In this document: in pieces, positions 381 through 29,701 of the stretch
Position numbering within the stretch: the stretch's first letter is position 1
Layout: every line of letters starts with the position of its first letter
Origin: a virus
DNA length: 30,899 nucleotides
Virus record (IMG/VR): IMGVR_UViG_3300030106_003002
Coordinates: 1-30,899 of that record
Reading direction: 5' to 3' (one strand)
Notes under the pieces: generated by a model
The model's input: the letters and a program-made list of their open reading frames with translations, nothing else
Told to the model about the DNA's origin: nothing
Database searches by the model: none
Made by a program: the position numbers and the translations under genes

Positions 381-406
381 TATAACGTATTTTTTTTAAA
401 TTTTGT
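381..406 (-). promoter_or_regulatory. Phage bipartite promoter-like element P1 (late, terS-terL)
   Basis: On the minus strand this reads ACAAAAT, 10 nt, then TACGTTATA, followed by TA. The core is at 389-381 and the upstream box at 406-400, touching the stop codon of the preceding gene. The start codon of the terS-like gene is 26 nt downstream. It is one of six copies in this window, all upstream of genes. I infer a promoter read by the phage sigma factor encoded at 6347-6844. Confidence 0.7.
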
Positions 407-1254
407 TAGACACCACAATATCCTGAATCGCACTCATTAAAATCATCATCAAATAGGTCTGTTTGTTTAAAGCTATCTCTTATTTGACTATATGTAACGC
501 CTTTCTTAAAAGTTCCTACATTAATCCCTTTGTGTTGTTCTGCTTCTATAAACCAATTATATTTTTCAGGATGTTTTTCACTCATTAGCTTAAGAAGTAC
601 TTCGTTTCTATGAAAGCACCCTATACAATTATTCATATAAGCAAATCTCACAGGTTTGTCTATCCAATACTTTTCTACTTGGTCTTTATATATGTTATCT
701 TTTATTAATGGGAACACAGGTCTTTGCCATCCTATATCTGCCCATTTGTTTCTCGTTCCTCTTTTGCCTACTATTGCTTTGTAAGTAGATAAACCCTCAT
801 CATTGAGTTTAGATAGCATTGTTTTAGCCCTGCTGTGTTCGTTTGCTCTATACCCTATTCGTGTTTTAATTGGTTTTCCTATCTCGCTTCGCCACCATTC
901 AAATATAGGTTTAAGTTTCATCTCAGTAGTGCAGAATCTTTGAGTAACATTTGGTAAGTATTTTTTATCGCCATGCACTATAATCTTGTCAAAGGTTTTA
1001 CCTGTAAGCCAAGTGATCTTTCTACCTATGTATTGCTCTAAGTCAAGCATAGTGTAGATAATGGTATCATCTTCTGCTGTGGCTATAAAGGGTGCTTGTA
1101 TTCTGTCCTCTACTTCCTGTCTTAGTTTCTTATCAGGGAACGTACATCTTTTATCTTCTATTCGTACCAACGCGAACACATCATAGTCAGCAGGATAGTT
1201 AGCTGCTATATAGCTTGAAGTCTTACCACCTGATAAACTATTTACTGTTTTCAT
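406..1254 (-). CDS. PP-loop ATPase, PAPS-reductase/DndC-like
   Basis: A 282-residue protein with an N-terminal PP-loop, SLSGGKTSS (residues 6-14). This is the ATP-pyrophosphatase signature shared by PAPS reductases, DndC and tRNA thiolation enzymes. Cysteines occur in FCTTEMK (Cys108), in NNCIGC (Cys210 and Cys213), and near the end (Cys275, Cys280). Cys108, Cys210 and Cys213 could hold an iron-sulfur cluster or carry sulfur, as in DndC-like enzymes. Such genes are frequent in phages and usually labelled PAPS reductase, but here no sulfate-assimilation partner is present. It closes the early gene string, just before late promoter P1. A role in nucleic-acid modification is inference; the PP-loop family is secure. 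Confidence 0.85.
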   Translation of the reverse strand: MKTVNSLSGGKTSSYIAANYPADYDVFALVRIEDKRCTFPDKKLRQEVEDRIQAPFIATAEDDTIIYTMLDLEQYIGRKITWLTGKTFDKIIVHGDKKYLPNVTQRFCTTEMKLKPIFEWWRSEIGKPIKTRIGYRANEHSRAKTMLSKLNDEGLSTYKAIVGKRGTRNKWADIGWQRPVFPLIKDNIYKDQVEKYWIDKPVRFAYMNNCIGCFHRNEVLLKLMSEKHPEKYNWFIEAEQHKGINVGTFKKGVTYSQIRDSFKQTDLFDDDFNECDSGYCGV

Positions 1255-1366
1255 TCTTTAATTCCTGCACCTCTTTAGCTAATTGATTAACCATTAAGTA
1301 GAGTTTTGTTGTAACTCTTTCTATCTGCTCAATCTTTTGTGCTTGTGTCCATTTTTTACTCTTCAT
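1238..1366 (-). CDS. Small coiled-coil protein (42 aa)
   Basis: A 42-residue ORF beginning MKSKKWTQAQKIEQIERV. It is charged and heptad-like throughout (leucine/valine at spaced positions after residue 20), so probably a short coiled coil. Its ATG overlaps the end of the upstream ORF by 11 nt, and its own end overlaps the PP-loop gene start by 17 nt, matching the compact layout here. No function is recognised. Confidence 0.55.
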   Translation of the reverse strand: MKSKKWTQAQKIEQIERVTTKLYLMVNQLAKEVQELKNENSK

Positions 1367-1496
1367 AATCTTGAAATATAATTTCTACATACCATAAGGC
1401 GAAGTCAATGATTATCGCTCTAAATTGGTTATGATAGTTAGTGAATGTTATCCCAAAGGATAGTTGATTATTTATTTTTCCTGTCTGTATTTTCAT
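1356..1496 (-). CDS. Small hypothetical protein (46 aa)
   Basis: A 46-residue ORF beginning MKIQTGKINNQLSFGITF and ending in an aromatic, acidic segment. The alternating hydrophobic pattern (SFGITF, RAIIIDFALWYVEIIF) suggests beta strands or a single amphipathic/membrane-associated segment. It overlaps the Cys-rich ORF upstream by 29 nt in another frame and the coiled-coil ORF downstream by 11 nt. I recognise no function. Support is mainly the continuous chain of overlapping start and stop codons. Confidence 0.45.
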   Translation of the reverse strand: MKIQTGKINNQLSFGITFTNYHNQFRAIIIDFALWYVEIIFQDYEE

Positions 1497-1599
1497 CTAA
1501 TTGTTTTTCGTATAGTGCGCAGTCGTTACATTGAAACACGCAGCGTGAGTAACTAAAATCATCATCAATACACACAAAATCATTTGCTGCCATCGTCAT
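1468..1599 (-). CDS. Small Cys-rich protein (43 aa), possible metal binder
   Basis: A 43-residue ORF with four cysteines, one near residue 10 and a CVFQCNDC cluster at residues 20-27. The CxxxCxxC spacing suggests zinc binding. The start at 1599 gives MTMAAND; an alternative ATG two codons later (1593) is equally possible. It overlaps the end of the preceding membrane ORF by 20 nt. No specific family is recognised. Confidence 0.5.
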   Translation of the reverse strand: MTMAANDFVCIDDDFSYSRCVFQCNDCALYEKQLDENTDRKNK

Positions 1600-1684
1600 A
1601 TCCTTTTAGGTATCCTATAAACCAAAAGAAAGCACATAGTACCATTGTTGTTAAGAACCCACTAAAATCCATATATAGTATCAT
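1580..1684 (-). CDS. Small single-span membrane protein (34 aa)
   Basis: A 34-residue ORF with one hydrophobic segment (about residues 8-24, including LTTMVLCAFFWFIGYL) followed by a charged tail KGYDDGSK. The pattern predicts an inner-membrane anchor with a short polar tail. Its ATG overlaps the stop of the upstream 43-aa ORF in the ATGA manner. Function unknown. Confidence 0.55.
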   Translation of the reverse strand: MILYMDFSGFLTTMVLCAFFWFIGYLKGYDDGSK

Positions 1685-1812
1685 CTTTTGTATTTAAGTT
1701 TAGGACTATCATCACTACTAAAGTGTTCTATCATTTTATCACAGTACTTTATTATCTTTTCATTGTCTGTGGTTGACTTCCAATGCTGATAATATCGTAT
1801 CATGTGTATCAT
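1681..1812 (-). CDS. Small hypothetical protein (43 aa)
   Basis: A 43-residue ORF beginning MIHMIRYYQHWKSTTDNE. It is polar with helical character. I use the ATG at 1812, which overlaps the methyltransferase stop as TGATG, rather than the longer in-frame start at 1890, which would lie well inside the methyltransferase gene. Function unknown. Confidence 0.5.
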   Translation of the reverse strand: MIHMIRYYQHWKSTTDNEKIIKYCDKMIEHFSSDDSPKLKYKR

Positions 1813-2408
1813 CAGAATAGTCTTTGTTGTTGTTTGTGTTGTTCTATTCGTTTCATGGCAGCTTCGTAGTAGTCTTTGTCGATTTCGCACCCTGTAAGCT
1901 GATATCCTAAATTATGACACGCTATTGCTATTGAGCCACTACCTAAATGAGTATCGAGTATCTTATCGTTTTCTTTAGCGTAATTCATTAAAAGCCATTC
2001 GTATAAACCTATTGGTTTTTGTGTAGGATGTATTCTTGTTCCGTTTCTTTGAAATGGTTTTAAGCTGTGATATCTTGCAACACTATTAAAAGAAGTCCAA
2101 GCCATTTCCCATTCGCTAAAAGTTCTGTTTTGCAACTCTCTTGTTTTTGTCCAAGCTAAAACGCATCTCGTTGGTGGCAAATCAAAATAATTACCACCCC
2201 ATATTATTTGGTTTTTACTAACTCTAAATAACTCATCAAAAAAAATTTTATCAGGCGTTTCTTTATCCCATTTTTTACCTTGACTTTTATTAAAGTATTG
2301 CCCACCATTTTCATAACCAATCCCATAGGGTGGGTCAACGATAGCAAGGTCGAAGTAGTTATCCTCATACCTTGCCATTAAATCCATGCAGTCCTCGTTT
2401 GTTATCAT
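1812..2408 (-). CDS. DNA adenine/cytosine-N4 methyltransferase (copy 1)
   Basis: A 198-residue amino-methyltransferase. Catalytic motif IV is DPPY at residues 25-28 and the SAM-binding motif I equivalent, DTHLGSGS, comes late at residues 152-159. This order is that of beta-class enzymes, which usually methylate adenine N6 or cytosine N4. It ends with the D12/N4N6-type tail TGCEIDKDYYEAAMKRIE. It is about 200 aa and has little room for a separate target-recognition domain beyond the central segment (residues 75-125). A paralogue lies at 6841-7455. There is no restriction partner beside it, so it is likely an orphan enzyme protecting phage DNA or marking it for other proteins. Its start overlaps the upstream gene by 4 nt (ATGA). 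Confidence 0.92.
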   Translation of the reverse strand: MITNEDCMDLMARYEDNYFDLAIVDPPYGIGYENGGQYFNKSQGKKWDKETPDKIFFDELFRVSKNQIIWGGNYFDLPPTRCVLAWTKTRELQNRTFSEWEMAWTSFNSVARYHSLKPFQRNGTRIHPTQKPIGLYEWLLMNYAKENDKILDTHLGSGSIAIACHNLGYQLTGCEIDKDYYEAAMKRIEQHKQQQRLF

Positions 2409-2878
2409 TCGACTGAGATTGCGTTTGCATCGTATATAGTCGCTTGTTGGTTTTTCGGTTGTATATTAAACCCTACTAACATAGCTTCTAAGCGTATTTT
2501 AACATCGTTTCTGCGTTCCTCAGGCACTTGGTCTATAAGTGAATACAAAGGATTCTCTATACGCTTTGCAATCAGCTCTATTGGCTTATCCTTTATATTG
2601 TAGAATATGTTATACACTTTGTCAAAGTCTGCTTTAAACTCTTTATCGTGTTTGTAGTAATGGGTAAACCTATTCAGGTGGTGTAGAACAGTTGCGTGGT
2701 TTTGCTTAAATGATTCTGAGATATGCCTTTTAACCACTTCCTGCTCTCTCATTATTCTATAAGCAATCATCCTACCCTTTACCACTTTGTGCTTACGATT
2801 GTTCTCAGTTATATCTATACCTAAGTGTTCTTTGATGATCTTCTCTAATCGTGTCTTGATGTCTTTTGTGTAAGTCAT
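2405..2878 (-). CDS. DnaA domain IV-like DNA-binding protein, putative replication initiator
   Basis: A 157-residue protein. Residues 28-71 resemble the C-terminal DNA-binding domain of DnaA: a basic RKHKVVKGRMIAYRIM helix, then a helix-turn-helix containing NHATVLHHL (60-68), close to the DnaA signature in which a His/Thr-containing helix reads the DnaA box. No AAA+ domain is present, so it cannot act as a full DnaA. The remaining C-terminal half is helical and unassigned. It sits between the ParB-like gene and a methyltransferase, within the replication block. I infer that it binds the phage origin and helps recruit the host replisome, since no phage polymerase or primase is seen. Confidence 0.75.
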   Translation of the reverse strand: MTYTKDIKTRLEKIIKEHLGIDITENNRKHKVVKGRMIAYRIMREQEVVKRHISESFKQNHATVLHHLNRFTHYYKHDKEFKADFDKVYNIFYNIKDKPIELIAKRIENPLYSLIDQVPEERRNDVKIRLEAMLVGFNIQPKNQQATIYDANAISVE

Positions 2879-3714
2879 TTAATCGTGCTTAATTTATTTT
2901 TAACAAATTGATTGTAATATGTAACAACGTTATCCTTTGTGGTGTTTAAATATGGTGGCATAGTTTTGTCGAGATACAGAGCAAACTTAACCAACTCTTT
3001 AAACATCTTATCTACATTATTCGTTTTGCGAATTACCTTATTAATGATAACTGCCAAAGCACACTTAGTCAGCTTGTGAGTCATTTTATCCCAATCAAGA
3101 TACTTATTGATCTCATCTATGTAGGATGATTGCAATAGATAATATAATCTCAATCGTGTAGATGCGTTGCTTTGTATTTTTGCGTTCCCTGTTCTAAAAG
3201 AATCGTTTGATGATTGAGTGAATAGCATCCTGATTGATGCGTGTGAGAATACACCATTAACACCCATAGCTTCATCAAGTTGCTTTGGCGTTTCAGGGCT
3301 GTTGTATATCTTGTTCCAAACAAACGTATAGAAGTTATCATTATCAAAAGGGTTCACACTTCGCTTAGTTGCGTGAAATCTAATATAGTCCTGTATCTGT
3401 AATGGCTTTCGTATATTGTTAAGAGATAGAAAAACATCCTCAGGTTTTACCTTTGTATCGTTTGGCACTACAACAGCGTGTATCTCTTGCTCAGGCATCT
3501 TCTCAATTACAGAGCTTAACCTTTGATATCCATCCTCTACTGAGTATAACCCTTTGCGTATTTCGTATAATGTTACTGCTGTTAAAAACCCATTCGCTTT
3601 GATTGAGTTGTTTAGATTGCTTATGTGATGTTTCTCTTTCCATCTTTGATGTAGGGGTATTGTTATTTGATTTTTTAAATCCCCTGCTTTAAATGTTCTT
3701 ACTTCCGTTCTCAT
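2875..3714 (-). CDS. ParB/sulfiredoxin-fold domain protein
   Basis: A 279-residue protein. Its N-terminal 100 residues match the ParB/Srx pattern: a stretch setting out required values (LHQRWKEKHHISNLNNSI), then SVEDGYQRLSSV at residues 58-69, which corresponds to the DGxHR-type motif of ParB-like nucleotide-binding and nuclease domains. The C-terminal two thirds are helical with no motif I recognise. It is overlapped by 4 nt by the DnaA-like gene downstream and spaced 1 nt from the exonuclease gene upstream. In phages such proteins can be DNases, partition-like clamps or modification-associated; which applies here is unknown. Confidence 0.75.
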   Translation of the reverse strand: MRTEVRTFKAGDLKNQITIPLHQRWKEKHHISNLNNSIKANGFLTAVTLYEIRKGLYSVEDGYQRLSSVIEKMPEQEIHAVVVPNDTKVKPEDVFLSLNNIRKPLQIQDYIRFHATKRSVNPFDNDNFYTFVWNKIYNSPETPKQLDEAMGVNGVFSHASIRMLFTQSSNDSFRTGNAKIQSNASTRLRLYYLLQSSYIDEINKYLDWDKMTHKLTKCALAVIINKVIRKTNNVDKMFKELVKFALYLDKTMPPYLNTTKDNVVTYYNQFVKNKLSTIK

Positions 3715-3715
3715 G

Positions 3716-4489
3716 TTATAAAATTCCTGTTAAACAATAATTATCTAAATCTGCGCCATGTATAAAAAAGGTCTCAAAAACTTCTATGGCTTCATGTGTT
3801 TTTCTTTTACCCTCATTGTAAAACTCTTCTGATACATCGTATATTGCTATGTCAAGAGTTCCCTTGTCCATTACACCAAACTTAAACTCTGTGTAAGGTA
3901 CGTTAAATAATTCACAATAAATATACACCTGTATATCATATCCATACTTTCGTGCCGAGTAAGGGAAGCCCTTTACGTCTGTTGTGGTCTTTAGGTCAAC
4001 GATCTTGTTTTTACCCAACACATCTGCTTTTCCTCTAAAGGGATAACCACCTATCATACCACAGGCAGGTACTTCAAACTCGCTGTTGTCTAAAAGTCTT
4101 AATGCCTGTTCGTTTCTTAGGAACGCATCAGCTAACCTTTCAGCATCTCGTTTCTCTTTTATCGTAAATACTTTGCCATGCTCTGATAGTGCTTCCTTAT
4201 ACTTCTTTGTGTTTTTGCTTTGTACATCTACAAAGATTTGATTATTAAACACATCAGGCTCTAAGATAGCTGTGTGAAACAACCACCCATCACGCATGGC
4301 CTGACTATCAGGCGAACCATAGTCTAAAATGTATTTATACTTTTTTGGGCTTTGGTGTAGCATCTTGATTGATGATGAGCTTAGAGCTGCCTTAGCCATA
4401 TAGCCATAGTAAAAGTCATCTTCTTTTAGTAAGTCTATGAGGGTGTCTTTCTTAAAGCGTTCCCCATTGAGTAGTACTATCTCGCTCAT
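3716..4489 (-). CDS. PD-(D/E)XK exonuclease, RecE/YqaJ-like
   Basis: A 257-residue nuclease. The motif series is visible in order: FH at residues 71-72, RGKADVLG with Asp156, IVDLKTT with Asp165 and Lys167, then YDIQ with Gln187. This H...D...DxK...YxxQ order is that of the RecB-family nucleases, including RecE/exonuclease VIII and lambda-type exonucleases. The likely role is 5'-3' resection of phage DNA ends for recombination-dependent replication, with the SSB-like proteins upstream as partners. No recognisable RecT/Beta annealing protein is adjacent. Its start overlaps the zinc-ribbon ORF by 4 nt (ATGA). Confidence 0.88.
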   Translation of the reverse strand: MSEIVLLNGERFKKDTLIDLLKEDDFYYGYMAKAALSSSSIKMLHQSPKKYKYILDYGSPDSQAMRDGWLFHTAILEPDVFNNQIFVDVQSKNTKKYKEALSEHGKVFTIKEKRDAERLADAFLRNEQALRLLDNSEFEVPACGMIGGYPFRGKADVLGKNKIVDLKTTTDVKGFPYSARKYGYDIQVYIYCELFNVPYTEFKFGVMDKGTLDIAIYDVSEEFYNEGKRKTHEAIEVFETFFIHGADLDNYCLTGIL

Positions 4490-4611
4490 CTTTGGTCTGC
4501 TTCAAAACAAGTTCCACTACAATACTCTGCTGACCTGCCTACTTCTGTACCACACATAGGGCATGAGTACTCAGGCTCTTCTATACATTTTAAATAATCG
4601 CTATATTCCAT
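4486..4611 (-). CDS. Small zinc-ribbon protein (41 aa)
   Basis: A 41-residue ORF with two Cys pairs: CPMCG at residues 17-21 and YCSGTC at residues 30-35. The CxxC...CxxxC arrangement is that of a small treble-clef or zinc-ribbon fold. It overlaps both neighbours (11 nt upstream, 4 nt with the exonuclease), so it is probably co-translated with the exonuclease. A structural or DNA-associated role is inference. Confidence 0.65.
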   Translation of the reverse strand: MEYSDYLKCIEEPEYSCPMCGTEVGRSAEYCSGTCFEADQR

Positions 4612-4873
4612 ATTTGTTCTCTTTTAAATTCTCTAACTCTTTCTCTGCTCGTCTTGCACGTTCTACAAGTCTTTGCACTGATAAGCGTTCCTGTTTTACA
4701 ATACGCTTATAACTATACCTTTCTAACTCTAATTGATTAATGTAGAACACAAGTCGTAAGGCTGCTTCTGATATCTTTTGCAGTTCCTCATTGTCTGACT
4801 TCTCTTGCCACTTGCTGATAGTTTCTAAAATCTCAGCAGAATCAATCATATACTGCAACTGACTAAAATCCAT
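4601..4873 (-). CDS. Helical coiled-coil protein (90 aa)
   Basis: A hydrophilic, almost entirely helical protein with heptad-like stretches in its second half (LERYSYKRIV through RAEKELENLKEN). Three ATG codons are possible: 4882, 4873 and 4849. I use 4873 (MDFSQLQYMIDSAE). The 4849 start would make an ATGA junction with the 26-aa membrane ORF ending at 4846, so it is a serious alternative. Function unknown; it is likely a small early accessory protein. Confidence 0.6.
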   Translation of the reverse strand: MDFSQLQYMIDSAEILETISKWQEKSDNEELQKISEAALRLVFYINQLELERYSYKRIVKQERLSVQRLVERARRAEKELENLKENKYGI

Positions 4874-4926
4874 ATCAAGCATATAATAATTCCTACAAGT
4901 CCTATCTGTGCGTAGTCTAACTTCAT
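4846..4926 (-). CDS. Tiny membrane peptide (26 aa)
   Basis: A 26-residue ORF, MKLDYAQIGLVGIIICLIW followed by ILVSCSI, nearly all hydrophobic after residue 8. Both junctions are overlapping stop/start pairs (TATGA upstream and ATGA downstream), which favours real translation. The length is close to the minimum credible; confidence is therefore moderate. Confidence 0.42.
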   Translation of the reverse strand: MKLDYAQIGLVGIIICLIWILVSCSI

Positions 4927-5063
4927 AGCTTTAAAAACTTTTTGGCTTTAGACCACCATACATTCTGAGTGTAGTACAAGTTAAACTCTGTTTGTGTCAT
5001 TACTTCTATCCTATCGCCTTTGTTGACGATATATAAACCTGTGGGTGTTATTTTAAAAACCAT
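4923..5063 (-). CDS. Small hypothetical protein (46 aa)
   Basis: A 46-residue ORF beginning MVFKITPTGLYIVNKGD and ending in a basic KAKKFLKL tail. Beta-rich first half with an aromatic WW near the end. I use the ATG at 5063 rather than an upstream in-frame ATG at 5117, because the shorter start overlaps the end of the membrane ORF 5048-5182, as is usual in this genome, and the longer one would lie inside it. Function unknown. Confidence 0.5.
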   Translation of the reverse strand: MVFKITPTGLYIVNKGDRIEVMTQTEFNLYYTQNVWWSKAKKFLKL

Positions 5064-5182
5064 GCTCTTAGTATATAGGTTAATAATAAGATATCTAAAA
5101 TAGCAACCCAAAAGCATAGAGCCATCAATGCCATATACATTGTACCCTCTATGTTATTAAAGTAATTGATTAATTTTCTCAT
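5048..5182 (-). CDS. Small membrane protein (44 aa), first gene behind a host-type promoter
   Basis: A 44-residue ORF with a long hydrophobic core (about residues 14-38, including MALMALCFWVAILDILLL) flanked by basic residues on both sides, so a single-span or hairpin membrane protein. It is the first gene after the strong host-type promoter at 5203-5232, with the ATG about 14 nt from the predicted transcription start. It is therefore likely to be among the earliest phage products. Function unknown; an effect on the host envelope is only a guess. Confidence 0.6.
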   Translation of the reverse strand: MRKLINYFNNIEGTMYMALMALCFWVAILDILLLTYILRAWFLK

Positions 5183-5202
5183 AAAATTGTTTTAATGTTA
5201 TA

Positions 5203-5232
5203 CAAATATAATAAAAAATTGTTAATAAACAA
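5203..5232 (-). promoter_or_regulatory. Host-type Bacteroidota sigma-A promoter
   Basis: On the minus strand TTG (5232-5230) is followed by 19 nt and TATATTTG (5210-5203). This matches the Bacteroidota primary sigma consensus TTG-N19/20-TAnnTTTG exactly. It lies in a non-coding gap of 54 nt, upstream of the run of small ORFs leading to the nuclease and replication genes. Early expression by unmodified host RNA polymerase is the natural inference. Confidence 0.75.
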
Positions 5233-5236
5233 CTTT

Positions 5237-5377
5237 CTACTTTTTTCTGTACTGAACAGCACACACAGCAAGTCTTTGATCTGTGTTAGGATACTCTTTC
5301 ATCATTGTAGGATTCCCCATACAGCGTGTCATAAAGTCCTTTCTGTCCTCTCGTGGTTTTGGTGTTGGTAATGGCAT
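5237..5377 (-). CDS. Small conserved-type phage protein (46 aa)
   Basis: A 46-residue ORF beginning MPLPTPKPREDRKDFMTRC. The pattern DFMTRCMGNPTMMKEYP...QRLAVCAVQYRKK resembles a short motif often fused to, or placed near, phage XkdF-type and portal-related proteins (DF-x-RCM...EFP...QR-x-AVC-x-xQ). Two cysteines sit at conserved-looking positions. The start is 2 nt after the upstream nuclease gene. Function unknown. Confidence 0.65.
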   Translation of the reverse strand: MPLPTPKPREDRKDFMTRCMGNPTMMKEYPNTDQRLAVCAVQYRKK

Positions 5378-5379
5378 AA

Positions 5380-6027
5380 CTATATATTTAAGTGCATTAT
5401 TGTATTAATCTTGTTTATCGTTTCCTGCTTATCTACAATTCCGTTATCATCGTAGTAAACATAAACGTAGGGGGCGAACATACGTGCATAGTTTTCGTTT
5501 TTTTCTTTGTGGTTTGCCTTTGCTCTATTCTGATAAGCTGTATTCATCATCTTGTAAGAGATAGGCTTTATTTGTATCCCTAAGATAATGTAATCATCTT
5601 TTATTATCTCAGCATCTATGCAATAGGTGTGGTCTTTTTCGAAGTCTGTTTTGACTATATCTATATTGGTAAACTCTTCTTTGAGTTCGTCTATTATGCT
5701 TAGTTCCTGTTGGTATCCGTTCCAAGTCTGTCCTATCACACGATAGAAAACATATTGCTTTACTTCCTCTAATGGTATCCATTGATTCTTTAGATGTATC
5801 CTTTGGCTTACATAAGATAGTTGTTTGTATCCTACTGTACACTTATACGAGTATTCCCAATCCTTATGCGTTTTGCCCTCGTGGTATTTATGAAAGTCGC
5901 TTATGAGCTTCATGCACTTACCTACATACTTAGTCTGAAAAAAATGATTGACACTCTTGTCTTTGTTTAGCTTTCGGTACAGCTCATCGTTTAAAGGTTG
6001 CTTATACTTATGCGTCATATATTTCAT
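5380..6027 (-). CDS. PD-(D/E)XK-fold restriction-endonuclease-like protein
   Basis: A 215-residue protein. The candidate active site is CIDAEIIKDDYIILGIQIKP (residues 136-155), with Asp138 and the pair Gln152/Lys154. This is an Asp...(E/Q)-x-Lys arrangement on two strands, as in restriction-endonuclease-fold enzymes whose second acidic residue is Gln. Upstream helices (YVFYRVIGQTWNGYQQE, 92-108) supply a possible Glu108. It could be a homing-type or host-DNA-degrading nuclease, possibly selective for unmethylated DNA given the phage methyltransferases. It overlaps the 69-aa gene upstream by 20 nt; a second ATG at 6018 is possible. Confidence 0.65.
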   Translation of the reverse strand: MKYMTHKYKQPLNDELYRKLNKDKSVNHFFQTKYVGKCMKLISDFHKYHEGKTHKDWEYSYKCTVGYKQLSYVSQRIHLKNQWIPLEEVKQYVFYRVIGQTWNGYQQELSIIDELKEEFTNIDIVKTDFEKDHTYCIDAEIIKDDYIILGIQIKPISYKMMNTAYQNRAKANHKEKNENYARMFAPYVYVYYDDNGIVDKQETINKINTIMHLNI

Positions 6028-6217
6028 TTATTTGGTCTACCCATTTTCTAAGACGCTTAGGTGAACAACCACAAGGTTCGTGGTATTTATGAGCGTATAG
6101 ATCAGCGTGTAATTCGCATATAAGTTTGTAGTGCTTAGGTGTCATATTGCCACTAAGAATCTTAGCGTAGGGCTTCCACCTATCTCTTTGCTCTTTGGTC
6201 ATTTTACCTTTTGGCAT
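6008..6217 (-). CDS. Small helical protein with CxC motif (69 aa)
   Basis: A 69-residue basic protein. It has a helical N-terminal part (MTKEQRDRWKPYAKIL) and a CGCSPKRLRKWVDQINEIY segment (residues 49-67). The CxC plus following helix may bind a metal or nucleic acid. It lies 1 nt after the 19-aa ORF and overlaps the endonuclease gene by 20 nt, so all three are likely one transcription unit from the element at 6302-6326. Function unknown. Confidence 0.65.
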   Translation of the reverse strand: MPKGKMTKEQRDRWKPYAKILSGNMTPKHYKLICELHADLYAHKYHEPCGCSPKRLRKWVDQINEIYDA

Positions 6218-6218
6218 C

Positions 6219-6278
6219 CTAAAATTTTATGTTATTCCACTTGTTTCTGCGCTCATCGCACCCACAATCTCTACCCAT
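6219..6278 (-). CDS. Tiny Cys-containing peptide (19 aa)
   Basis: A 19-residue ORF, MGRDCGCDERRNKWNNIKF, with a CGC motif echoing the CGC of the following gene product. It starts 23 nt below the promoter-like element P2 and ends 1 nt before the next ATG. It could equally be a leader peptide for the following genes. Length limits confidence. Confidence 0.4.
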   Translation of the reverse strand: MGRDCGCDERRNKWNNIKF

Positions 6279-6301
6279 AAGTTTGGATATCTTCTTTACT
6301 A

Positions 6302-6326
6302 TATAACGTATTCCTGTGTATTTTGT
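6302..6326 (-). promoter_or_regulatory. Phage bipartite promoter-like element P2 (early region)
   Basis: Minus strand: ACAAAAT (6326-6320), 9 nt, TACGTTATA (6310-6302), then TA. It sits in the 68-nt gap directly after the sigma-factor gene. It is the only copy in the replication region and the only one with a 9-nt instead of a 10-nt spacer. It should drive the 19-aa ORF, the 69-aa protein and the endonuclease-like gene. Confidence 0.68.
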
Positions 6327-6346
6327 GAAGTAAAATACTAAATCCC

Positions 6347-6844
6347 CTAATCCCATTCTATATTATTTTTGATTAAATCCTTAACTCTTTTGTATGTAAA
6401 GTACAGAGAATAATAAGATATGTTTGTCTTACGTGCCAACTCTGCAATAGGCATACCATCGCTAATTATCTCAAACACAGTACGATCATACCAAAAGGTT
6501 TTGTCAAGCAGATTATCCATTTTTTTCATAATGCCACAAACATCTATCTCTTTTGATTCGCCCTGCTCGTCTAAATAGTCAGCAAGATTATCTATGTTAG
6601 TTTTTATTATATTTTTCTCTTTTCGGTGCAGGTCTATAAACAAACCTCTTAAAACTCGATAAACGTAAATGTGGTTTATATCATCCCCATAGCTTATATC
6701 TGCACCTTTAGTAATGTAGGTGTGGATACGGATGTACATCTCTTGTACGATATCCTCAGCGATGGATTCTTTGCAGCCAAAAGATAACACAATCCTATGC
6801 CAATCATCGTGCTTCTCTGCAATCTTCTGTAAAGTAGTTTTCAA
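6347..6844 (-). CDS. Sigma-70 family (ECF-like) RNA polymerase sigma factor
   Basis: A 165-residue protein with the two domains of an ECF-type sigma factor. Region 2 is SIAEDIVQEMYIRIH (residues 27-41), then a region 2.3/2.4-like YVYRVLRGLFIDLHRKEK (60-77), corresponding to the core-binding and -10-recognition helices. Region 4 is FEIISDGMPIAELARKTNIS (about 124-143) continuing into SLYFTYKRVKDLIK, a helix-turn-helix for -35 contact. No sigma-1.1 or region 3 is present, and length is typical for ECF factors. The gene overlaps the methyltransferase by 4 nt (ATGA) and is followed at once by element P2. I infer that it redirects host polymerase to the six TACGTTATA promoters, switching on late genes. 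Family placement is from motifs; the promoter link is inference. Confidence 0.8.
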   Translation of the reverse strand: MKTTLQKIAEKHDDWHRIVLSFGCKESIAEDIVQEMYIRIHTYITKGADISYGDDINHIYVYRVLRGLFIDLHRKEKNIIKTNIDNLADYLDEQGESKEIDVCGIMKKMDNLLDKTFWYDRTVFEIISDGMPIAELARKTNISYYSLYFTYKRVKDLIKNNIEWD

Positions 6845-7455
6845 AATAATCTTTGTTGCACTTTATGGTTTTCTATTCGTTTCATAGCTGCATTATAATA
6901 ATCAGAATCAAGTTCACAAGCAGTAAGGTCAAAACCTAAGTTATGACAAGCTATAGCAATAGAACCTGAACCCAAGTGAGTGTCTAAAATCTTATCGTTT
7001 TCTTTAGCGTAATTCATAAGCAACCATTCATATAGCTTGACGGGTTTTTGTGTTGGGTGTATTTTACCACCTACTTTAGGTACTGACAATCTATAAATTT
7101 TAGCCAATTTATCAAAACTTGTCCAAGCTAATTCACACATAGCTAAACTAAAATCTTCGCTAATTTTTTTATCCCAAACTATAAAACATCTGCTACTTTG
7201 TAAATTATCTAAAAAATAATTACCACCCCAAACAATTTGATTTTGCGAAACCCTTTGCAATTCAATAAAATAATCTTTTGTTGGTGGTTTTATATCCCAA
7301 CCTTTATCAACTACTTCGTTAAAGTTCATTTTACCTGTTTTCCCACCTTTAAATTTATCACCAATCCCATAAGGTGGATCAACAATAGCTAACTCAAAAT
7401 ACCTGTCAGGATATCTTGACATCAATTCCATGTTATCTTCGCAAGTGATTTTCAA
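6841..7455 (-). CDS. DNA adenine/cytosine-N4 methyltransferase (copy 2)
   Basis: A 204-residue paralogue of the enzyme at 1812-2408. DPPY is at residues 26-29 and DTHLGSGS at 159-166, the beta-class order. The two proteins are nearly identical over a block around the SAM-binding loop (YEWLLMNYAKENDKIL, then HLGSGSIAIACHNLG). They differ strongly in the central segment (about residues 35-130), where target recognition is expected, so different target sites are likely. It overlaps the ATPase gene upstream by 4 nt and the sigma gene downstream by 4 nt. Probable role: modification of phage DNA against host restriction. Confidence 0.92.
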   Translation of the reverse strand: MKITCEDNMELMSRYPDRYFELAIVDPPYGIGDKFKGGKTGKMNFNEVVDKGWDIKPPTKDYFIELQRVSQNQIVWGGNYFLDNLQSSRCFIVWDKKISEDFSLAMCELAWTSFDKLAKIYRLSVPKVGGKIHPTQKPVKLYEWLLMNYAKENDKILDTHLGSGSIAIACHNLGFDLTACELDSDYYNAAMKRIENHKVQQRLF

Positions 7456-8360: not shown

Positions 8361-8373
8361 TTGGTAAAGTTAT

Positions 8374-8399
8374 AAAAAAAAAGGGGGTGGTTAGCCCCC
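8374..8399 (-). terminator. Rho-independent terminator after the SSB-like gene
   Basis: On the minus strand a 5-bp GGGGG/CCCCC stem (8399-8395 with 8387-8383) has a 7-nt loop and runs into about nine uridines. It lies 7 nt after the stop of the SSB-like gene and 14 nt before the ATPase start. It probably tunes rather than blocks expression of downstream genes. Confidence 0.7.
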
Positions 8400-8405
8400 T
8401 ATTGG

Positions 8406-9461: not shown

Positions 9462-9464
9462 TTG

Positions 9465-9495
9465 CAAAGATACTATTTCATTTTATTTTTAACAA
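9465..9495 (-). promoter_or_regulatory. Host-type Bacteroidota sigma-A promoter (candidate)
   Basis: Minus strand: TTG (9495-9493), 20 nt, TATCTTTG (9472-9465), matching TTG-N19/20-TAnnTTTG. It overlaps the 3' end of the NinG-like gene. The predicted RNA starts near 9458 and meets a terminator within about 40-60 nt. Confidence 0.6.
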
Positions 9496-10034: not shown

Positions 10035-10187
10035 AATCTCTATACATATGTGTTCCCAAAGTTAAAAAAAAATTTTTTGCTTTATTATAATATATATATA
10101 TATATTTTAATTATAATAAATAATTATTATTATATTATATTATACTTAAGTACTATAATACTTATAATACTTATAATATACTATATA
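10035..10187. other. AT-rich non-coding region with short repeats; candidate origin and promoter
   Basis: A 153-nt gap between the holin (late end) and the replication genes, almost entirely A/T. It holds alternating TA tracts (about 10087-10105), an ACTTAAGT palindrome (10144-10151), tandem copies of ATAATACTT at 10155-10163 and 10164-10172, and a partial third. A TAACTTTG box at 10064-10057 (minus strand) matches the Bacteroidota -7 element, but no TTG is found at the right distance. Easily melted DNA with iteron-like repeats is compatible with an origin; this is inference. Confidence 0.45.
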
Positions 10188-10637
10188 CTACTTAGTGATT
10201 TTTTTAAATTTTTCAAAACCTCTACTACCAAAGTATGCCACATAGATTGTTACTAAAAGTGTTTTAAGTAATTCAATCCACGCTTCATCTATCTTGAAAT
10301 CTATCTGTAAACTATCAAGCACAATGTAAATTGTAGTCGCAAGAGTAAGGTATATAAGCGTTATTGGTCTTACATTCTTACTCAACCATGAATCACTTTG
10401 CATATCAGAATCCCAACGCTTAGAAATCTCTGAAAACTCTTGTGCATCAATCTCGATAAGTTTTAAGGCAGTTTCTTTGTCTTGTGGGGTTAGGGTACTA
10501 TCTTTTGCTATAAGTCGCTTAAACACGCCTAAAACGCCATTGTCAGGCAATATATCGCCCATTCCATCGCCAAGCGTAGAACCCACTGATGTTAAGAATT
10601 TACCTACTTTCGTGTCCTTAAACTTCTTTTTACTCAT
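10188..10637 (-). CDS. Holin-like protein (3TM-holin type)
   Basis: A 149-residue protein. The block SKRWDSDMQSDSWLSKNVRP (about residues 73-92) before two hydrophobic segments (LIYLTLATTIYIVLDSL and ELLKTLLVTIYVAYFG) is the pattern of three-helix holins found in phages and gene-transfer agents. A weaker hydrophobic stretch near residues 10-35 could be the third. I choose ATG 10637 (MSKKKFKDTKVG) over the upstream in-frame ATG at 10664, because it overlaps the preceding small ORF's stop (ATGAGTAA). Likely role: membrane permeabilisation at lysis, with the M15 peptidase just upstream. Confidence 0.75.
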   Translation of the reverse strand: MSKKKFKDTKVGKFLTSVGSTLGDGMGDILPDNGVLGVFKRLIAKDSTLTPQDKETALKLIEIDAQEFSEISKRWDSDMQSDSWLSKNVRPITLIYLTLATTIYIVLDSLQIDFKIDEAWIELLKTLLVTIYVAYFGSRGFEKFKKITK

Positions 10638-18503: not shown

Positions 18504-18529
18504 TATAACGTATAGATTCTGAATTTTGT
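18504..18529 (-). promoter_or_regulatory. Phage bipartite promoter-like element P3
   Basis: Minus strand: ACAAAAT (18529-18523), 10 nt, TACGTTATA (18512-18504). It is immediately downstream of a terminator (18535-18560) and 5 nt upstream of the ATG at 18498. The terminator-then-promoter order supports the promoter reading. Confidence 0.75.
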
Positions 18530-18534: not shown

Positions 18535-18560
18535 AAAAAAGGGGGCTTTTACACCCCCCC
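18535..18560 (-). terminator. Rho-independent terminator after the major tail protein
   Basis: Minus strand: a GGGGG/CCCCC stem (from 18560 towards 18541) with an 8-10 nt loop, followed by six uridines. It lies about 58 nt after the tail-tube gene stop and ends the capsid/tail-tube transcript. Confidence 0.8.
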
Positions 18561-20732: not shown

Positions 20733-20737
20733 AATAG

Positions 20738-20763
20738 TATAACGTATTTAAAAATTAATTTGT
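20738..20763 (-). promoter_or_regulatory. Phage bipartite promoter-like element P4
   Basis: Minus strand: ACAAATT (20763-20757), 10 nt, TACGTTATA (20746-20738), and CTATT before the ATG. It is 5 nt upstream of the scaffold-like gene and heads the capsid operon. The upstream box is the least perfect of the six. Confidence 0.7.
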
Positions 20764-20771
20764 ATTTTGGG

Positions 20772-21408: not shown

Positions 21409-21410
21409 AA

Positions 21411-22958: not shown

Positions 22959-22963
22959 ATCTA

Positions 22964-22989
22964 TATAACGTATTTAGTTTAGTTTTTGT
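22964..22989 (-). promoter_or_regulatory. Phage bipartite promoter-like element P5
   Basis: Minus strand: ACAAAAA (22989-22983), 10 nt, TACGTTATA (22972-22964), then TAGAT and the ATG at 22958. It fills the 33-nt gap between the tape-measure and protease genes. Third case of an exact 5-nt distance to the start codon. Confidence 0.75.
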
Positions 22990-22991
22990 AT

Positions 22992-24602: not shown

Positions 24603-24733
24603 TCCATGTCGTTTTTAAATTGTTTAAATGCCTGTCTAAAGTTCTTAGGCAGGTAATTTTTCCCTTTAGCTATTCGGATGTTTTCCGAGCCATCTTTTAC
24701 ATAGGGCAGTAACTCTAAGATATTCTGTATCAT
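24581..24733 (-). CDS. Small protein between tail-tip and tape-measure genes (50 aa)
   Basis: A 50-residue ORF beginning MIQNILELLPYVKDGSENIR. Basic second half ends FKNDMEWLKKSK. Its start makes an ATGA overlap with the tail gene upstream, and its end overlaps the tape-measure start by 22 nt. It fills an otherwise empty stretch. Possible tail assembly helper; function unknown. Confidence 0.55.
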   Translation of the reverse strand: MIQNILELLPYVKDGSENIRIAKGKNYLPKNFRQAFKQFKNDMEWLKKSK

Positions 24734-26799
24734 AATTCGTTTAATAGTTCTATGTTTGATTCGCCTGTTGCTAAGTTTGTTTCTATGCTGTTGATCTTAT
24801 ACCTTTTACCATTGATATCAAACCTATCAGCAAGGGTAAAGTTCAAAAGGATTCTAAGGGGTAGATATGCCTTTACTTTTGTAAGTCTGTTCTTTATGTT
24901 AAACACATTTGTAATATAGGTACTGTAATAGTTTTGGAACAATGTACCTGTAAAACTACTATCGCCTGTATATTCGTTTTTCTCTAAGTTAAAATTAATG
25001 TTAGCAGTCGATGTGCCTGAGCTAAAAGAAACGCTGTTAGATGGCATGTTTACACTGCCTGTGATTTCTGAGTGTGTGTTATATGTGCCATCTGCATTGA
25101 CTAAATCTATAAAACTTATTGATTCAGATGGGTTTGTATATACAGGGTAAAATAGTAATGGTTTTCCAATGTAGCTCTCTTGGTTATCATCTACTGACCA
25201 ACCTACTTGAATCTCTGTTTCATCTTCATTATCAAGATTCAATAGTTTTTCGTATTTAGGATGTCCGAATGGTGCTACAACACTATATAAAGCACCATCA
25301 ACTATATTACCACTGTCATCTGATTGTGTAAAGTCTGTTTTTGCCCACTCTTGATTGAACAGTTGATTGTGTGTAGCAGCTAAAAACGTATCTGTATCTT
25401 CAAAACTAAATGATACTTCCCTATAAGGCAAAGCTATATTAACCTGACTGCTTTTTACATCTACAAACTCACTTATATCGTACGCTGTACTTATTGACTT
25501 TTTATTGGTATAAAAGTTATCTAAGGTGTCAACGTATATAGTGCCATCATCCTCTACAAACGTAGTAAGGTTAAACATCTTAAACAATCCTGTCAAAAAG
25601 TCTATAACTTTGATTTCAGGTATTTGTTCGCTTATAATAAATTCAAAATCAGTTGGTGCTGTGTAGCTACCTGTATCATGTGTTGTTGTTATAAGCGTTC
25701 CACTATCTATAAGCCTTGTATCCCATTCTATATTTGTAAAAGTTAATATACTTGTATAAGTTAGTGTAACTGTATAAACTGCAGCAGTAGTCCAAAATGA
25801 ATCTATATCGATAACCTTTGATGTTGATGTAATGCCACTTTCAGAAAAAACCTCAACCCCATCTCTTGCTATACTTATATCATAAGGGTTTGAACCTGAC
25901 CTGCTTAATGTTAATCTAAACCTGCTTACTGTTGTTCCTGATGGGTTTGCCACATTTAGATTACCTGTTGATATTATACTAACAGGCAAACTACTCGATG
26001 GTGTTGTTACACTTGTTGCACCTGTAAAGTCAACAACATTTACAAAAGATGGCACTTGTGTTCCACTTGATACCTTACCTTTTTTTCTGTGTAGCCACAT
26101 ATATAAATCATAGTAAACATCATTTGAGCTATTAAAGAAGTCTGTGCTAAAAGTAATACCATACTTAGTTTGTATCGCTTCTATGATCTTGTGTATCCTC
26201 AAAGCATATTTAAGCTCTTCCCACGCAAGACCATGCTTTTGCCCACTACCATAATAAAGATTTCCTGTATCATGTGCGTTATCCCCACTATCATAGTAAA
26301 TTCTTTTTGAGTGAGTGATAATAGGCACTACCACATCGTTTGACGCAGGGTCTCTTTGTAGCGCAGTTTTAATGTTTGCAGGTGCAAAGGTTTCATTAAG
26401 ACTATTAAGACTTGTAAGTGCGTTTAATTTATCTTCCCCTAACAGATCTTTAAGTGTTACTGTGTTACCAAAGAATGTAATGCGATAAGCCTTTGGTCTG
26501 CGATTCTGCAAGTCAACACCCTCTAACTTTATCTTACCTTTTTTGAATGGTAAGTTGTTTAATTCGAGTGTAGCATCTTTTTTAGTTCTCGCATCAAAGC
26601 CCCCTGTGATATCAAAATTGTAATAATGCTTAAATATCTTGTTGTTTGCTTTAGATGCAGGTAGAGTAAACGTCTTGGTAAATTCTGTGAACACTTTAGC
26701 AATATCCTTGACGTTTTGGATAGACTGAGTGATGCTTACAGATTCGTCTTTAAACATATCCACTCTTTGCCCCTCAATAAATAGCTGTATGCTCTGCAC
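24730..26799 (-). CDS. Large tail/tail-tip structural protein (689 aa)
   Basis: A 689-residue, mainly beta protein. The N-terminus (SIQLFIEGQRVDMFKDESVS, then TEFTKTFTLPAS) is a module found in tail structural proteins of Bacteroidota phages. A central region (250-380) has repeated short strands like an immunoglobulin-like fold. The C-terminal part (430-689) contains SEFVDVKSSQVNIALPYREV and ends NSIETNLATGESNIELLNEL. Gene order with the tape measure directly downstream suggests a distal tail or baseplate hub protein. Assignment is by context. Confidence 0.65.
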   Translation of the reverse strand: MQSIQLFIEGQRVDMFKDESVSITQSIQNVKDIAKVFTEFTKTFTLPASKANNKIFKHYYNFDITGGFDARTKKDATLELNNLPFKKGKIKLEGVDLQNRRPKAYRITFFGNTVTLKDLLGEDKLNALTSLNSLNETFAPANIKTALQRDPASNDVVVPIITHSKRIYYDSGDNAHDTGNLYYGSGQKHGLAWEELKYALRIHKIIEAIQTKYGITFSTDFFNSSNDVYYDLYMWLHRKKGKVSSGTQVPSFVNVVDFTGATSVTTPSSSLPVSIISTGNLNVANPSGTTVSRFRLTLSRSGSNPYDISIARDGVEVFSESGITSTSKVIDIDSFWTTAAVYTVTLTYTSILTFTNIEWDTRLIDSGTLITTTHDTGSYTAPTDFEFIISEQIPEIKVIDFLTGLFKMFNLTTFVEDDGTIYVDTLDNFYTNKKSISTAYDISEFVDVKSSQVNIALPYREVSFSFEDTDTFLAATHNQLFNQEWAKTDFTQSDDSGNIVDGALYSVVAPFGHPKYEKLLNLDNEDETEIQVGWSVDDNQESYIGKPLLFYPVYTNPSESISFIDLVNADGTYNTHSEITGSVNMPSNSVSFSSGTSTANINFNLEKNEYTGDSSFTGTLFQNYYSTYITNVFNIKNRLTKVKAYLPLRILLNFTLADRFDINGKRYKINSIETNLATGESNIELLNEL

Positions 26800-27959
26800 T
26801 ATCTTATGTTATTTATTTTATCAAAAGCGTGTTCAAACTCTACTGTATAGTTTGCAAGTCTATCGTTTACACTTGTCTTGTATGTAATTGACTTTGTTAA
26901 TGGGATGACAGGTATTACTTTCTCTTCTGTTTCTGTTATCTCTGTGTAGTAAACCTGCTCACTTAACAATAGTTCCTCTAAAACAGAATTATGGTCATCA
27001 TTAACATAACCTGTGTTCATTGTAATTCTATCTTTACCTTGTGCTAAAAACGCCTGTTGTTGGTGTTGGTATGTTTTGTAGCTTAGGGTACTTTGATCAA
27101 ATATAGATGCTTTAAACTGCTCAGACGTTACGTTGGTTGATTCTACTGATTTCTTAAAAAACATAAGGTCTTGCAAAGCACCATACTTATTAACGAATGT
27201 AACTTTGTAAGGTTCGTATTTACATTCCTCTGTGCTTAGTATTTTAATAACCTCTGTACCTGCTGAGGATGCTACATAAACCTCATCAACAAGTCCTATA
27301 TCCAACTGCCTTAGAAAGTCTGTTAAACAGCTTGACGTTTCAAGCGTACCCCCATCAGCCACAACCCTTTCCTCATAGCTGTCGTTATTATCTTGACCAC
27401 TTACTGTAACATAGTCTATTTGTGCGTTTGTGTTTGTTGAGCTGCTTATTGCTTGTGTTCGCTTTTCAACACCTTGATAGAAAAATGCTACGCTTGTTGT
27501 ATCGCCTGTGTAAACAGGGATTCTCACATTACTATCGTTAAGTCTAAATATAGTGTTGTTTGAAATCAAAGCACCTTTGGATAGCTCAGGGTTTGTACCC
27601 TCGTGAAAGTATCCATAACCATCAAAGGCTACAAAGCCATTTGTGTTGTCAGGCGATACTGTTGCACTTGCAGAACCACTTGATACTGTTGTTGATATTA
27701 TTGCATTAACCCAAACAACTTGACTGCTATACGTGCCATCAAACTCTATTTCAAGATAATCTCTTATAAGCTCTGCAACCTCAAACACAATAAACCCTGA
27801 TGTAAGTACATCCTTTGTAATTGTGTATTTAGGGTTTGCTACTGATGCGTTTGCTACAAATGTACCTGTGTAGATATATAAGTTGAGTGTAGCTGTTGCT
27901 ATGTTTGTTTGCGATACCTTTAGGTAAAAGGGGCTTCTTACGTTTATCTTTGTAGCCAT
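26799..27959 (-). CDS. Tail structural protein (386 aa)
   Basis: A 386-residue beta-rich protein beginning MATKINVRSPFYLKVSQTN. Strand-rich repeats and a ECKYEPYKVTFVNKYGALQD segment near 245-264 are visible. It abuts its neighbours by a single shared base on both sides, so it is translated as one unit with the 689-aa tail protein. A distal-tail (Dit-like) or tail-tip role is possible but unproven. Confidence 0.6.
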   Translation of the reverse strand: MATKINVRSPFYLKVSQTNIATATLNLYIYTGTFVANASVANPKYTITKDVLTSGFIVFEVAELIRDYLEIEFDGTYSSQVVWVNAIISTTVSSGSASATVSPDNTNGFVAFDGYGYFHEGTNPELSKGALISNNTIFRLNDSNVRIPVYTGDTTSVAFFYQGVEKRTQAISSSTNTNAQIDYVTVSGQDNNDSYEERVVADGGTLETSSCLTDFLRQLDIGLVDEVYVASSAGTEVIKILSTEECKYEPYKVTFVNKYGALQDLMFFKKSVESTNVTSEQFKASIFDQSTLSYKTYQHQQQAFLAQGKDRITMNTGYVNDDHNSVLEELLLSEQVYYTEITETEEKVIPVIPLTKSITYKTSVNDRLANYTVEFEHAFDKINNIR

Positions 27960-28465
27960 TATATTAAGTTTTCTAAGTCTTTAGCAAATTGCTCTTGTAA
28001 TTCTTTAGGTAGGTTAGTAAATGCTTTCTCAAAGGGCTTAGTAAAAAACAGAGATGGTTTGATTCCATAGTTCTTTACTATTGTAGCAAGTGCAAACCCT
28101 GTCTGCTTGTAGCTTAAAAACCTACCCTTTTTATCTCTGAATTGTATTCGCTTTGCAGATGCCCACTTACCAAACGTGCCTGTGGCACTTTCTAAGCCAA
28201 TAAGATTAGAGGATTGCTTGTAACTAAAATTACTCAAAGACTTACCACCACGTACACCCTTAACACCTCTGTCTTGAAACATACCATAATCTTCCATCTC
28301 AAAGAACAATCTAAACCCTGCACTTACTTCCTCTAAGGTAAACCCAAGAGAATCATATAGCTCTTTAGATACATTCTTTTTGCCTTTAGTAAGGTTTGTA
28401 CGTGCCTGTTGCACTACATACTTACCAAAAGCTCTTAGAGCTGTCTGTGTTTCTTTTAGCTGCAT
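27959..28465 (-). CDS. Tail completion/connector-like protein (HK97 gp10-type, tentative)
   Basis: A 168-residue basic protein beginning MQLKETQTALRAFGKYVVQQ. An N-terminal helix with QQARTNLTKGKKNVSKELYD is followed by strands (SAGFRLFFEMEDYGMFQDRG) and a C-terminal helix. This is the broad pattern of HK97 gp10-like proteins that complete the tail connector. It overlaps the gene upstream by 10 nt. Identity is tentative. Confidence 0.6.
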   Translation of the reverse strand: MQLKETQTALRAFGKYVVQQARTNLTKGKKNVSKELYDSLGFTLEEVSAGFRLFFEMEDYGMFQDRGVKGVRGGKSLSNFSYKQSSNLIGLESATGTFGKWASAKRIQFRDKKGRFLSYKQTGFALATIVKNYGIKPSLFFTKPFEKAFTNLPKELQEQFAKDLENLI

Positions 28466-28929
28466 ACGTTAATATCATTTTCTATAAGCACATCAAAGGT
28501 TGTAGCCCACCCTGCAACAGAGTTCTCAAACCTATCATAAAAGGGTTCACAACTTGGATCGCCATCTAATTGATATTTTGATGTGTATAATGTGCCTATT
28601 CTAAGCACCTGTATTACTTTATTGATAACAGCAAGTTGAGTGTTAAGTACATCCTGCTCATTGTCGTTATCCCTAAACACATCTACTACTGCATCTTTGC
28701 TTTGATCAACAATATCCATTGTTAAGATACTCATACTAAACCTAAGCACCTGCTCTTCCAATGTTACGTTATTAATTACAATGTGTGCAAGTGGAAAGAT
28801 GGTTTGCTTGTTTAGGTCTATATCTGTTATATCGCCTGTGGTAACTGTATTGATGTTATCATCAGCGAGTAGTTGGTCTTTGATTGTGTTGGTTATTTGA
28901 TAAAACCCTCTTGCACCTTGATTAGCCAT
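28456..28929 (-). CDS. Tail terminator-like protein (tentative)
   Basis: A 157-residue protein beginning MANQGARGFYQITNTIKDQL. Alternating strands and helices (PLAHIVINNVTLEEQVLRFS, TMDIVDQ) with a C-terminal WATTFDVLIEND strand fit the tail-terminator/completion fold. Its start codon overlaps the stop of the frameshifted tail chaperone (ATGGCTAA). Identity rests on position among tail-completion genes. Confidence 0.55.
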   Translation of the reverse strand: MANQGARGFYQITNTIKDQLLADDNINTVTTGDITDIDLNKQTIFPLAHIVINNVTLEEQVLRFSMSILTMDIVDQSKDAVVDVFRDNDNEQDVLNTQLAVINKVIQVLRIGTLYTSKYQLDGDPSCEPFYDRFENSVAGWATTFDVLIENDINVCS

Positions 28930-29176
28930 TGAATTTGCTTTTTATTTGTCTTGCTTCTAACTCTGCTTTGTCTTTCATAAAACTTAGGGCATATAAACAT
29001 TGATGAGCATTTAATTTAGTGATATCTTCAAATCTTCCAATATCCCCCTGAGCGAGTGCGTAAAGTGATTGATACCACCCCCATTTTCTTCCGAAATTAG
29101 ATGCAGCGCTAAGTTCATCTCTTCGTTCCCCAAATAGTTCAGCATAGCTTTCGATAAGTCCATCCCTAAATTGTAA
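28922..29176 (-). CDS. Tail assembly chaperone, -1 frame extension (GT-like)
   Basis: This open frame has no start of its own. It joins the upstream chaperone frame after a -1 slip at the nine-T run (29183-29175), adding 84 residues and giving a 245-aa product. The extension begins LQFRDGLIESYAELFGERRD and contains FGRKWGWYQSLYALAQGDI and FMKDKAELEARQIKSKFNG. The WGWYxSxYxLAxGDI pattern is characteristic of frameshift products of tail chaperones. It ends in a TAA overlapping the next gene's ATG, and so accounts for the gap left by the shorter frame. In phage lambda the equivalent is gpGT, which recruits tube subunits to the tape measure. Confidence 0.85.
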   Translation of the reverse strand, partial: LQFRDGLIESYAELFGERRDELSAASNFGRKWGWYQSLYALAQGDIGRFEDITKLNAHQCLYALSFMKDKAELEARQIKSKFNG

Positions 29177-29658
29177 AAAAAAACAATAGAACCTAAGACT
29201 GCGCTCATGGGCATATCTTTCATCTTATCTGCATTATCTACACTATAGTCTTCTATATTGTACTTATCGCCATACTGATTCTTAATAGGTCTGTATAATA
29301 CATTCATAGCTCTGTGCATATTTTGCCAATCACCTATAAACGTATCTAAGTCTATATATTCACCAAAGCTCATATCATCTAACTTAGGTATAAACCCATA
29401 CTGCGTACCTTTCATCTTGAACATAGTTTGCAACTTGGGTGTGTTGTTTAGCATCTCAGTTAATATCTGCACTATGCTGTTAATATCAGTAGCTCTCATG
29501 AGTAGCACGTGATCGCCACGTATCCCACAAAATATCTCTATCATCTTAACAGCCAAAAACTTCTCGTCTTCGTTGTTATCTTGTATCTTTAGATATCTCT
29601 GATATTGGTCTAAAGTTATCTCATTAAGTGATTCAGGGATTTCTATATCTACTTTCAT
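29011..29658 (-). CDS. Tail assembly chaperone, unshifted form (G-like)
   Basis: A 215-residue helical protein beginning MKVDIEIPESLNEITLDQYQ. The ITLDQYQRY element opens many Bacteroidota phage chaperones of this type. It has a hydrophobic helix SAVLGSIVFFYNLG (about 152-165), inside which the slippery run lies. After that point the zero frame continues for 54 residues with less characteristic sequence. It heads the tail operon, 17 nt below element P6. Both forms are presumed to chaperone the tape measure during tube polymerisation. Confidence 0.75.
   Translation of the reverse strand: MKVDIEIPESLNEITLDQYQRYLKIQDNNEDEKFLAVKMIEIFCGIRGDHVLLMRATDINSIVQILTEMLNNTPKLQTMFKMKGTQYGFIPKLDDMSFGEYIDLDTFIGDWQNMHRAMNVLYRPIKNQYGDKYNIEDYSVDNADKMKDMPMSAVLGSIVFFYNLGMDLSKAMLNYLGNEEMNLALHLISEENGGGINHFTHSLRGILEDLKISLN
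29176..29182 (-). promoter_or_regulatory. Programmed -1 frameshift slippery site (T-TTT-TTT)
   Basis: In the zero frame the codons are GTT TTT TTT TAC, from 29184 down. The heptamer T TTT TTT at 29182-29176 fits the X-XXY-YYZ rule and allows both tRNAs to re-pair after a -1 slip, leading into TTA CAA and the 84-residue extension. A run of nine T in the DNA could alternatively allow polymerase slippage. Confidence 0.8.
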
Positions 29659-29675
29659 AACTTATTACTTATCTA

Positions 29676-29701
29676 TATAACGTAAAAAAAAATGATTTTA
29701 G
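29676..29701 (-). promoter_or_regulatory. Phage bipartite promoter-like element P6 (tail operon)
   Basis: Minus strand: CTAAAAT (29701-29695), 10 nt including eight T, TACGTTATA (29684-29676), then TAGATAAG. It lies in the 39-nt gap between terL and the tail chaperone gene, 17 nt above the ATG. The upstream box overlaps the terL stop codon. Confidence 0.7.

Follow-up and report, generated by a model that had tools for sequence, protein, structure and literature searches.

The stretch of viral DNA analysed here, referred to as the window, comprises a record of 30,899 bases, in which the minus strand carries all main genes. Since the two ends share an imperfect repeat and terS continues towards terL across them, the record probably represents a nearly complete genome with circular permutation. 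In the early region (from about 10,000 to 400) lie the single-strand-binding, helicase, NinG-like, exonuclease, methylase and sigma genes, and in the late region those for terminase, tail, protease, scaffold, capsid and portal, where the tail, scaffold and capsid assignments rest partly on gene order. Direct BLAST of the sigma returned no match among cultured phages; the portal instead led to Nonlabens phage P12024S (Inhavirus), the nearest cultured phage by this protein (35% identical), which makes a flavobacterial host likely, and the host probably belongs to the marine flavobacteria. Between the late and early regions lies a very A+T-rich intergenic stretch (10040–10190) of similar make-up in several relatives, which is a candidate early promoter region or replication origin. 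The early region additionally carries an MjaI-type restriction endonuclease gene at 5380–6027 (Pfam RE_MjaI, E 1e-7), in a phage that also encodes two DNA methylase-like genes.

The 9-mer TACGTTATA occurs six times in the window, each time on the minus, coding strand, where 0.40 copies are expected and 0 of 100 shuffles reach six. Adding the upstream box at fixed spacing (YAAAW-N13-CGTTATA, 0.06 expected) leaves exactly five sites, at 381, 18504, 20738, 22964 and 29676 and all heading late units. The site at 381..406 (ACAAAAT-N10-TACGTTATA) precedes terS-terL, with the terS ATG at 354, and is conserved before terS in relatives. Identical in both boxes, the site at 18504..18529 heads the unit of 18498 and the portal gene, followed in genome coordinates by those of scaffold-capsid (20738..20763, ACAAATT-N10-TACGTTATA) and protease (22964..22989, ACAAAAA-N10-TACGTTATA); at these three sites, all conserved, the ATG lies 14 nt from the first base of the box. 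The fifth site (29676..29701, CTAAAAT-N10-TACGTTATA), kept in nearly all relatives, stands before unit 29658 and the tail genes. All five are minus-strand sites, and their gaps between box and start codon are 5, 5, 5, 17 and 26 nt, in agreement with the 5–26 nt given by a sequence-only reading of the window. The same reading had placed one site directly after a terminator, and an intrinsic-terminator-like hairpin is indeed found on the minus strand at 18539..18560, just upstream of the 18504 promoter. Directly below the terS -10 box, the terS leader (354–380) contains a near-palindrome, TTGAATAATCAA / TTGATTAATCAA, also present in relatives of all three promoter types described below, which may act as an operator or packaging site or form a hairpin in the leader.

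Host-type TTG/TAnnTTTG boxes are missing from all five late sites, in agreement with the earlier claim, and are present at a few early intergenic places. Two possible host-type early promoters on the minus strand, a -7 box TATCTTTG at 9465..9472 with TTG about 20 nt upstream and a -7 box TATATTTG at 5203..5210 with TTG about 19 nt upstream, are matches to the consensus; in a scan for sigma-70-type promoters, matches were not above chance.

The sixth copy, at 6302–6310, had been counted as a member of the promoter set, and all six copies had been described as intergenic. Coordinates and coding strand of the six are as claimed, but this copy lies inside an open reading frame, and the fixed-spacing search reduces the set to five. 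It has an odd 9-nt spacer, is the only copy in the early region, and reads as codons (ACA AAA TAC ACA GGA ATA CGT TAT ATA, encoding T K Y T G I R Y I) of a conserved 45-aa ORF (6219..6356, minus strand, MGLGDLVFYFTKYTGIRYIVKKISKLMGRDCGCDERRNKWNNIKF). Relatives conserve the protein (YTGIKW, YTGIHW; e.g. MKLGDLIYLFTKYTGIKWLVDK...CGCNKRR) with other codons and without the DNA box, so the 6302 copy is regarded as a chance coding match and rejected as a promoter. The start of this 45-aa Cys-Gly-Cys protein overlaps the stop of the sigma gene, beside which it stands in most relatives, and no database family was matched by it.

The proposal of a two-domain sigma factor at 6347..6844 (minus strand, 165 aa, TTG start) holds for a real ORF with profile matches, relatives and ECF fold matches. 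It matches Sigma70_r2 at E 1.3e-4, narrowly below the Pfam cut-off, and phrog_1740 (sigma factor) at E 4e-6; a search of IMG/VR returned at least 593 relatives, and with a threshold of E 0.01 Sigma70_r2 is recognised in 31 of 52 relatives. The AlphaFold model built from 52 relatives (mean pLDDT 83.8, pTM 0.45) features two confident helical domains joined by a disordered, low-confidence linker, and its best fold matches in the PDB are SigE, SigL and SigH of M. tuberculosis and E. coli sigmaE (E 1e-4 to 2e-3), with global TM-scores that are low since the domain arrangement is not fixed in the model. Taken by itself, region 2 can be aligned with that of sigmaE bound to its -10 strand (4lup) at an rmsd of 3.4–3.7, though with an E of only 0.6–0.7. 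The protein would thus have the regions 2 and 4 of an ECF sigma factor, without 1.1 and 3, region 4 being recognised by fold and not by a sequence profile. A PDB sequence search with the sigma profile returned only SigR, at a non-significant E of 0.06, a pattern scan of GTDB bacterial genomes confirmed no sigma relative, and tblastn against 50,697 phage records gave zero matches at E 0.01. The latter search is weak, as it also missed gp33 of P12024S, which was found by profile. Judged by profiles and model, the predicted product of 6347–6844 is a divergent two-domain ECF-like sigma factor. The promoters show the corresponding features, namely a CGT/GTT-type -10 box with a -35 box about 17 nt upstream, both in the window dyad and at 197 sites of the family.

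Whether sigma gene and motif co-occur in related phages had been posed as a check, and they do so throughout the larger records. An IMG/VR scan with ACAAAAT-N10-TACGTTATA alone yielded at least 120 loci, and 112 of 120 among the matches listed encode proteins of this family. The motif-only scan with a second promoter type gave 114 of 118 family loci among the matches listed; the CGATATA collection scan was loose, with family members at only 51 of 118 loci. Among family records selected by motif and no shorter than 24 kb, 19 of 19 encode the sigma factor, namely 8/8 near-complete ones (G019-G024, G026, G029) and 11/11 of at least 24 kb. Shorter fragments often do not include it, in line with what its distance from the late genes would predict, and among the near-complete family genomes none bears the motif without the sigma gene. 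One of them, the 53,010-base record G029, contains the late region twice and was apparently assembled from two related phage genomes. What is expected of a phage late sigma factor, a sigma gene together with similar, non-host promoters before structural genes, is thus found in the window and conserved in relatives.

Comparing the upstream regions of the five orthologous units across relatives revealed three box types, TACGTTATA as in the window, CGATATATA (G003, G042, G045) and GTTTATATATTA (G007-G009, G012, G015-G017 and others), with the A-rich -35 box retained across them. All sites of one genome share the same type, and from one sigma lineage to another the whole set switches, so that sigma and motif also co-vary. 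For the first two types, within-genome agreement amounts to 118 of 118 pairs, a count inflated by shared ancestry, compared to a shuffled mean of 87 and a maximum of 103 (0/5000). A whole-set switch to CGATATA is seen in three divergent sigma lineages (G003, G042 and G045, the last of which is not placed in the sigma tree). Close relatives illustrate the switch: L015 encodes a terS 96% identical and a sigma 80% identical to those of the window, and its terS promoter equals that of L009 almost base for base, save for CGT to CGA. In G015 and G017, terS-terL is 80–85% identical to that of the window, yet the promoter is of the type of their own sigma. Since relatives share ancestry, the co-variation is partly inherited, and with only two to three countable lineage pairs a sign test for independent switches is without power. 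Judged from these comparisons of sequence, the link between sigma and sites is well supported.

The base that differs between CGTTATA and CGATATA is the T matching T-10 of the G-11 T-10 T-9 box, on which Ile85 of SigH stacks (PMC6411747). Via the SigR alignment, Ile85 is equivalent to position 64 of the phage sigma. Leaving G030/L060 aside, Gln64 goes with a CGATATA set in every compared contig bearing both, and sets of CGTTATA or of the third type go with other residues at 64; the rule also holds for G042 and G043. The window sigma itself has Val64, and that of L015 Gln64. In a tree calculated without columns 60–68, the two Gln64 groups stand apart, with an AU p of 0.047 against their forming a single clade. 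G030/L060, initially regarded as a third Gln64 replicate, was withdrawn, since its AAAAT-to-ATG spacing is 25 nt and not 24, which leaves its -10 base not assignable; in the third-type clade, the register is shifted by one base and the -10 base likewise escapes assignment. Residue 64 as a complete code is rejected as well, since G045 has CGATATA at its late promoters together with Ile64, indicating that other residues can do the same. By analogy, we infer that region 2 of the phage sigma may read the -10 base as SigH does.

If the SigH register applies, counting from the first T of TACGTTATA puts +1 at the 15th base. An ATG lies exactly 14 nt from the first base of the box at 131 of 197 window-type sites and exactly at the predicted +1 at 69 of 99 GTTTATATAT sites, as well as at three of the five promoters in the window. 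The 14-nt spacing puts the predicted start on the A of the ATG, which would make these late mRNAs leaderless, and by this analogy many late mRNAs of the family are probably leaderless.

We propose a model in which the phage ECF-like sigma factor directs host RNA polymerase to five late promoters for the particle-building genes, and assign it a probability of roughly 0.88. The sigma gene, located among the early genes, would probably be expressed first from host-type promoters, and its product would join the host core RNA polymerase. The polymerase would thereby be directed to the five promoters, each consisting of an A-rich -35 box (TAYACAAAA-like) and the -10 box TACGTTATA, which in turn would drive the packaging, head and tail units in the presumed order from early to late. 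The evidence read from sequence that speaks for this model comprises the sigma gene, the five-promoter set, its conservation in position, its near-restriction to the family and the set-wise change of the box. A broader proposal, that in a widespread uncultured family the sigma and all five promoters have repeatedly switched specificity together, in part through a single residue contacting the -10 base, and that leaderless late mRNAs are the rule in it, could in our estimate equally well prove right or wrong.

It is unlikely that another phage protein, for example the 45-aa Cys-Gly-Cys or the 69-aa protein encoded beside sigma, activates host polymerase at the five sites. Both genes directly follow sigma and are conserved in most relatives, so that they co-vary with the promoters too; the boxes are, however, arranged as in a bipartite ECF promoter, and ECF region 2 reads the very base that changes. 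Furthermore, neither protein matches a known DNA-binding family, and P12024S has a different small gene after its sigma with CGTTA promoters still present. Flavobacteria encode ECF sigma factors themselves, and the box resembles ECF promoters in general, so that the sites might serve a host ECF sigma and not that of the phage. With the box type tracking the phage sigma lineage and changing at all sites of a genome together, and with an own sigma in 19/19 motif-selected near-complete genomes, we consider such use by the host very improbable. A role of the box as a signal for translation start or in the leader, instead of as a promoter, would agree with the two thirds of sites at which exactly 14 nt separate the ATG from its first base, and carries in our view an almost negligible probability, since at two of the five sites in the window the distance is longer (26 and 35 nt), a further box is conserved upstream at an invariant distance, and the sites occur once per gene unit, one of them right after a terminator, and not before every gene.

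In this family, numerous minimal sigma factors would be available together with their complete promoter sets as they occur in nature, in three box types, and some close relatives have boxes distinguished by a single base. It thereby becomes directly testable how the late programme can stay intact while a regulator changes in concert with all of its sites, and P12024S is available as a cultured relative for experiments. In addition, compact sigma-promoter pairs for Bacteroidota are offered, and leaderless late translation is suggested for these phages. In the open-licence literature, no paper describing this sigma-promoter system was found.

In P12024S, the very divergent sigma is gp33, which matches the profile of the window sigma and is annotated only as a hypothetical protein with Sigma-70 region 2. 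Its genome has six ACAAA-N12-16-CGTTA sites on the late strand, compared to 0.7 expected, and at five sites with the box CGTTAATA the annotated start codon, an ATG, is found 12 nt from the C, the same distance as in the window family; no description of these promoters was found in papers. Bacterial ECF sigmas (SigH, SigE, sigmaE) resemble the window sigma in having two helical domains without region 1 or 3, and the GTT of TACGTTATA is the counterpart of their G-11 T-10 T-9 box. The window sigma differs from them in being phage-encoded, with about 14% identity over the fold match and no recognised anti-sigma, and its -35 box is A-rich, in contrast to the GGAA-like bacterial ECF box.

Phage sigmas acting at late promoters are established for phiEco32 (PMC4331800) and 7-11 (PMC8948821). 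In phiEco32, structural units are preceded by a small set of six late or middle boxes of 9 bp, tAATGTAtA, which the phage sigma gp36 serves (PMC4331800, PMC8948821). However, gp36 is without a recognisable region 4 and its promoters are without a -35 box, which the window family keeps, and phiEco32 encodes gp79, which inhibits the host sigma, whereas no gp79-like protein is known in the window phage. As is proposed for the window sigma, gp47 of Salmonella phage 7-11 has regions 2 and 4, uses the host core polymerase and acts at bipartite late promoters (GTAAtg-16-aCTA), its gene being first transcribed from host-type promoters (PMC8948821). The two phages differ in their boxes, host phylum and genome type, 7-11 being a podovirus, and the window family, unlike 7-11, has promoters whose distance to the start codon is fixed at 14 nt. 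By analogy, the window system is one that would work like that of 7-11, with the mechanism found in phiEco32 and 7-11, extending the principle to flavobacterial-type phages.
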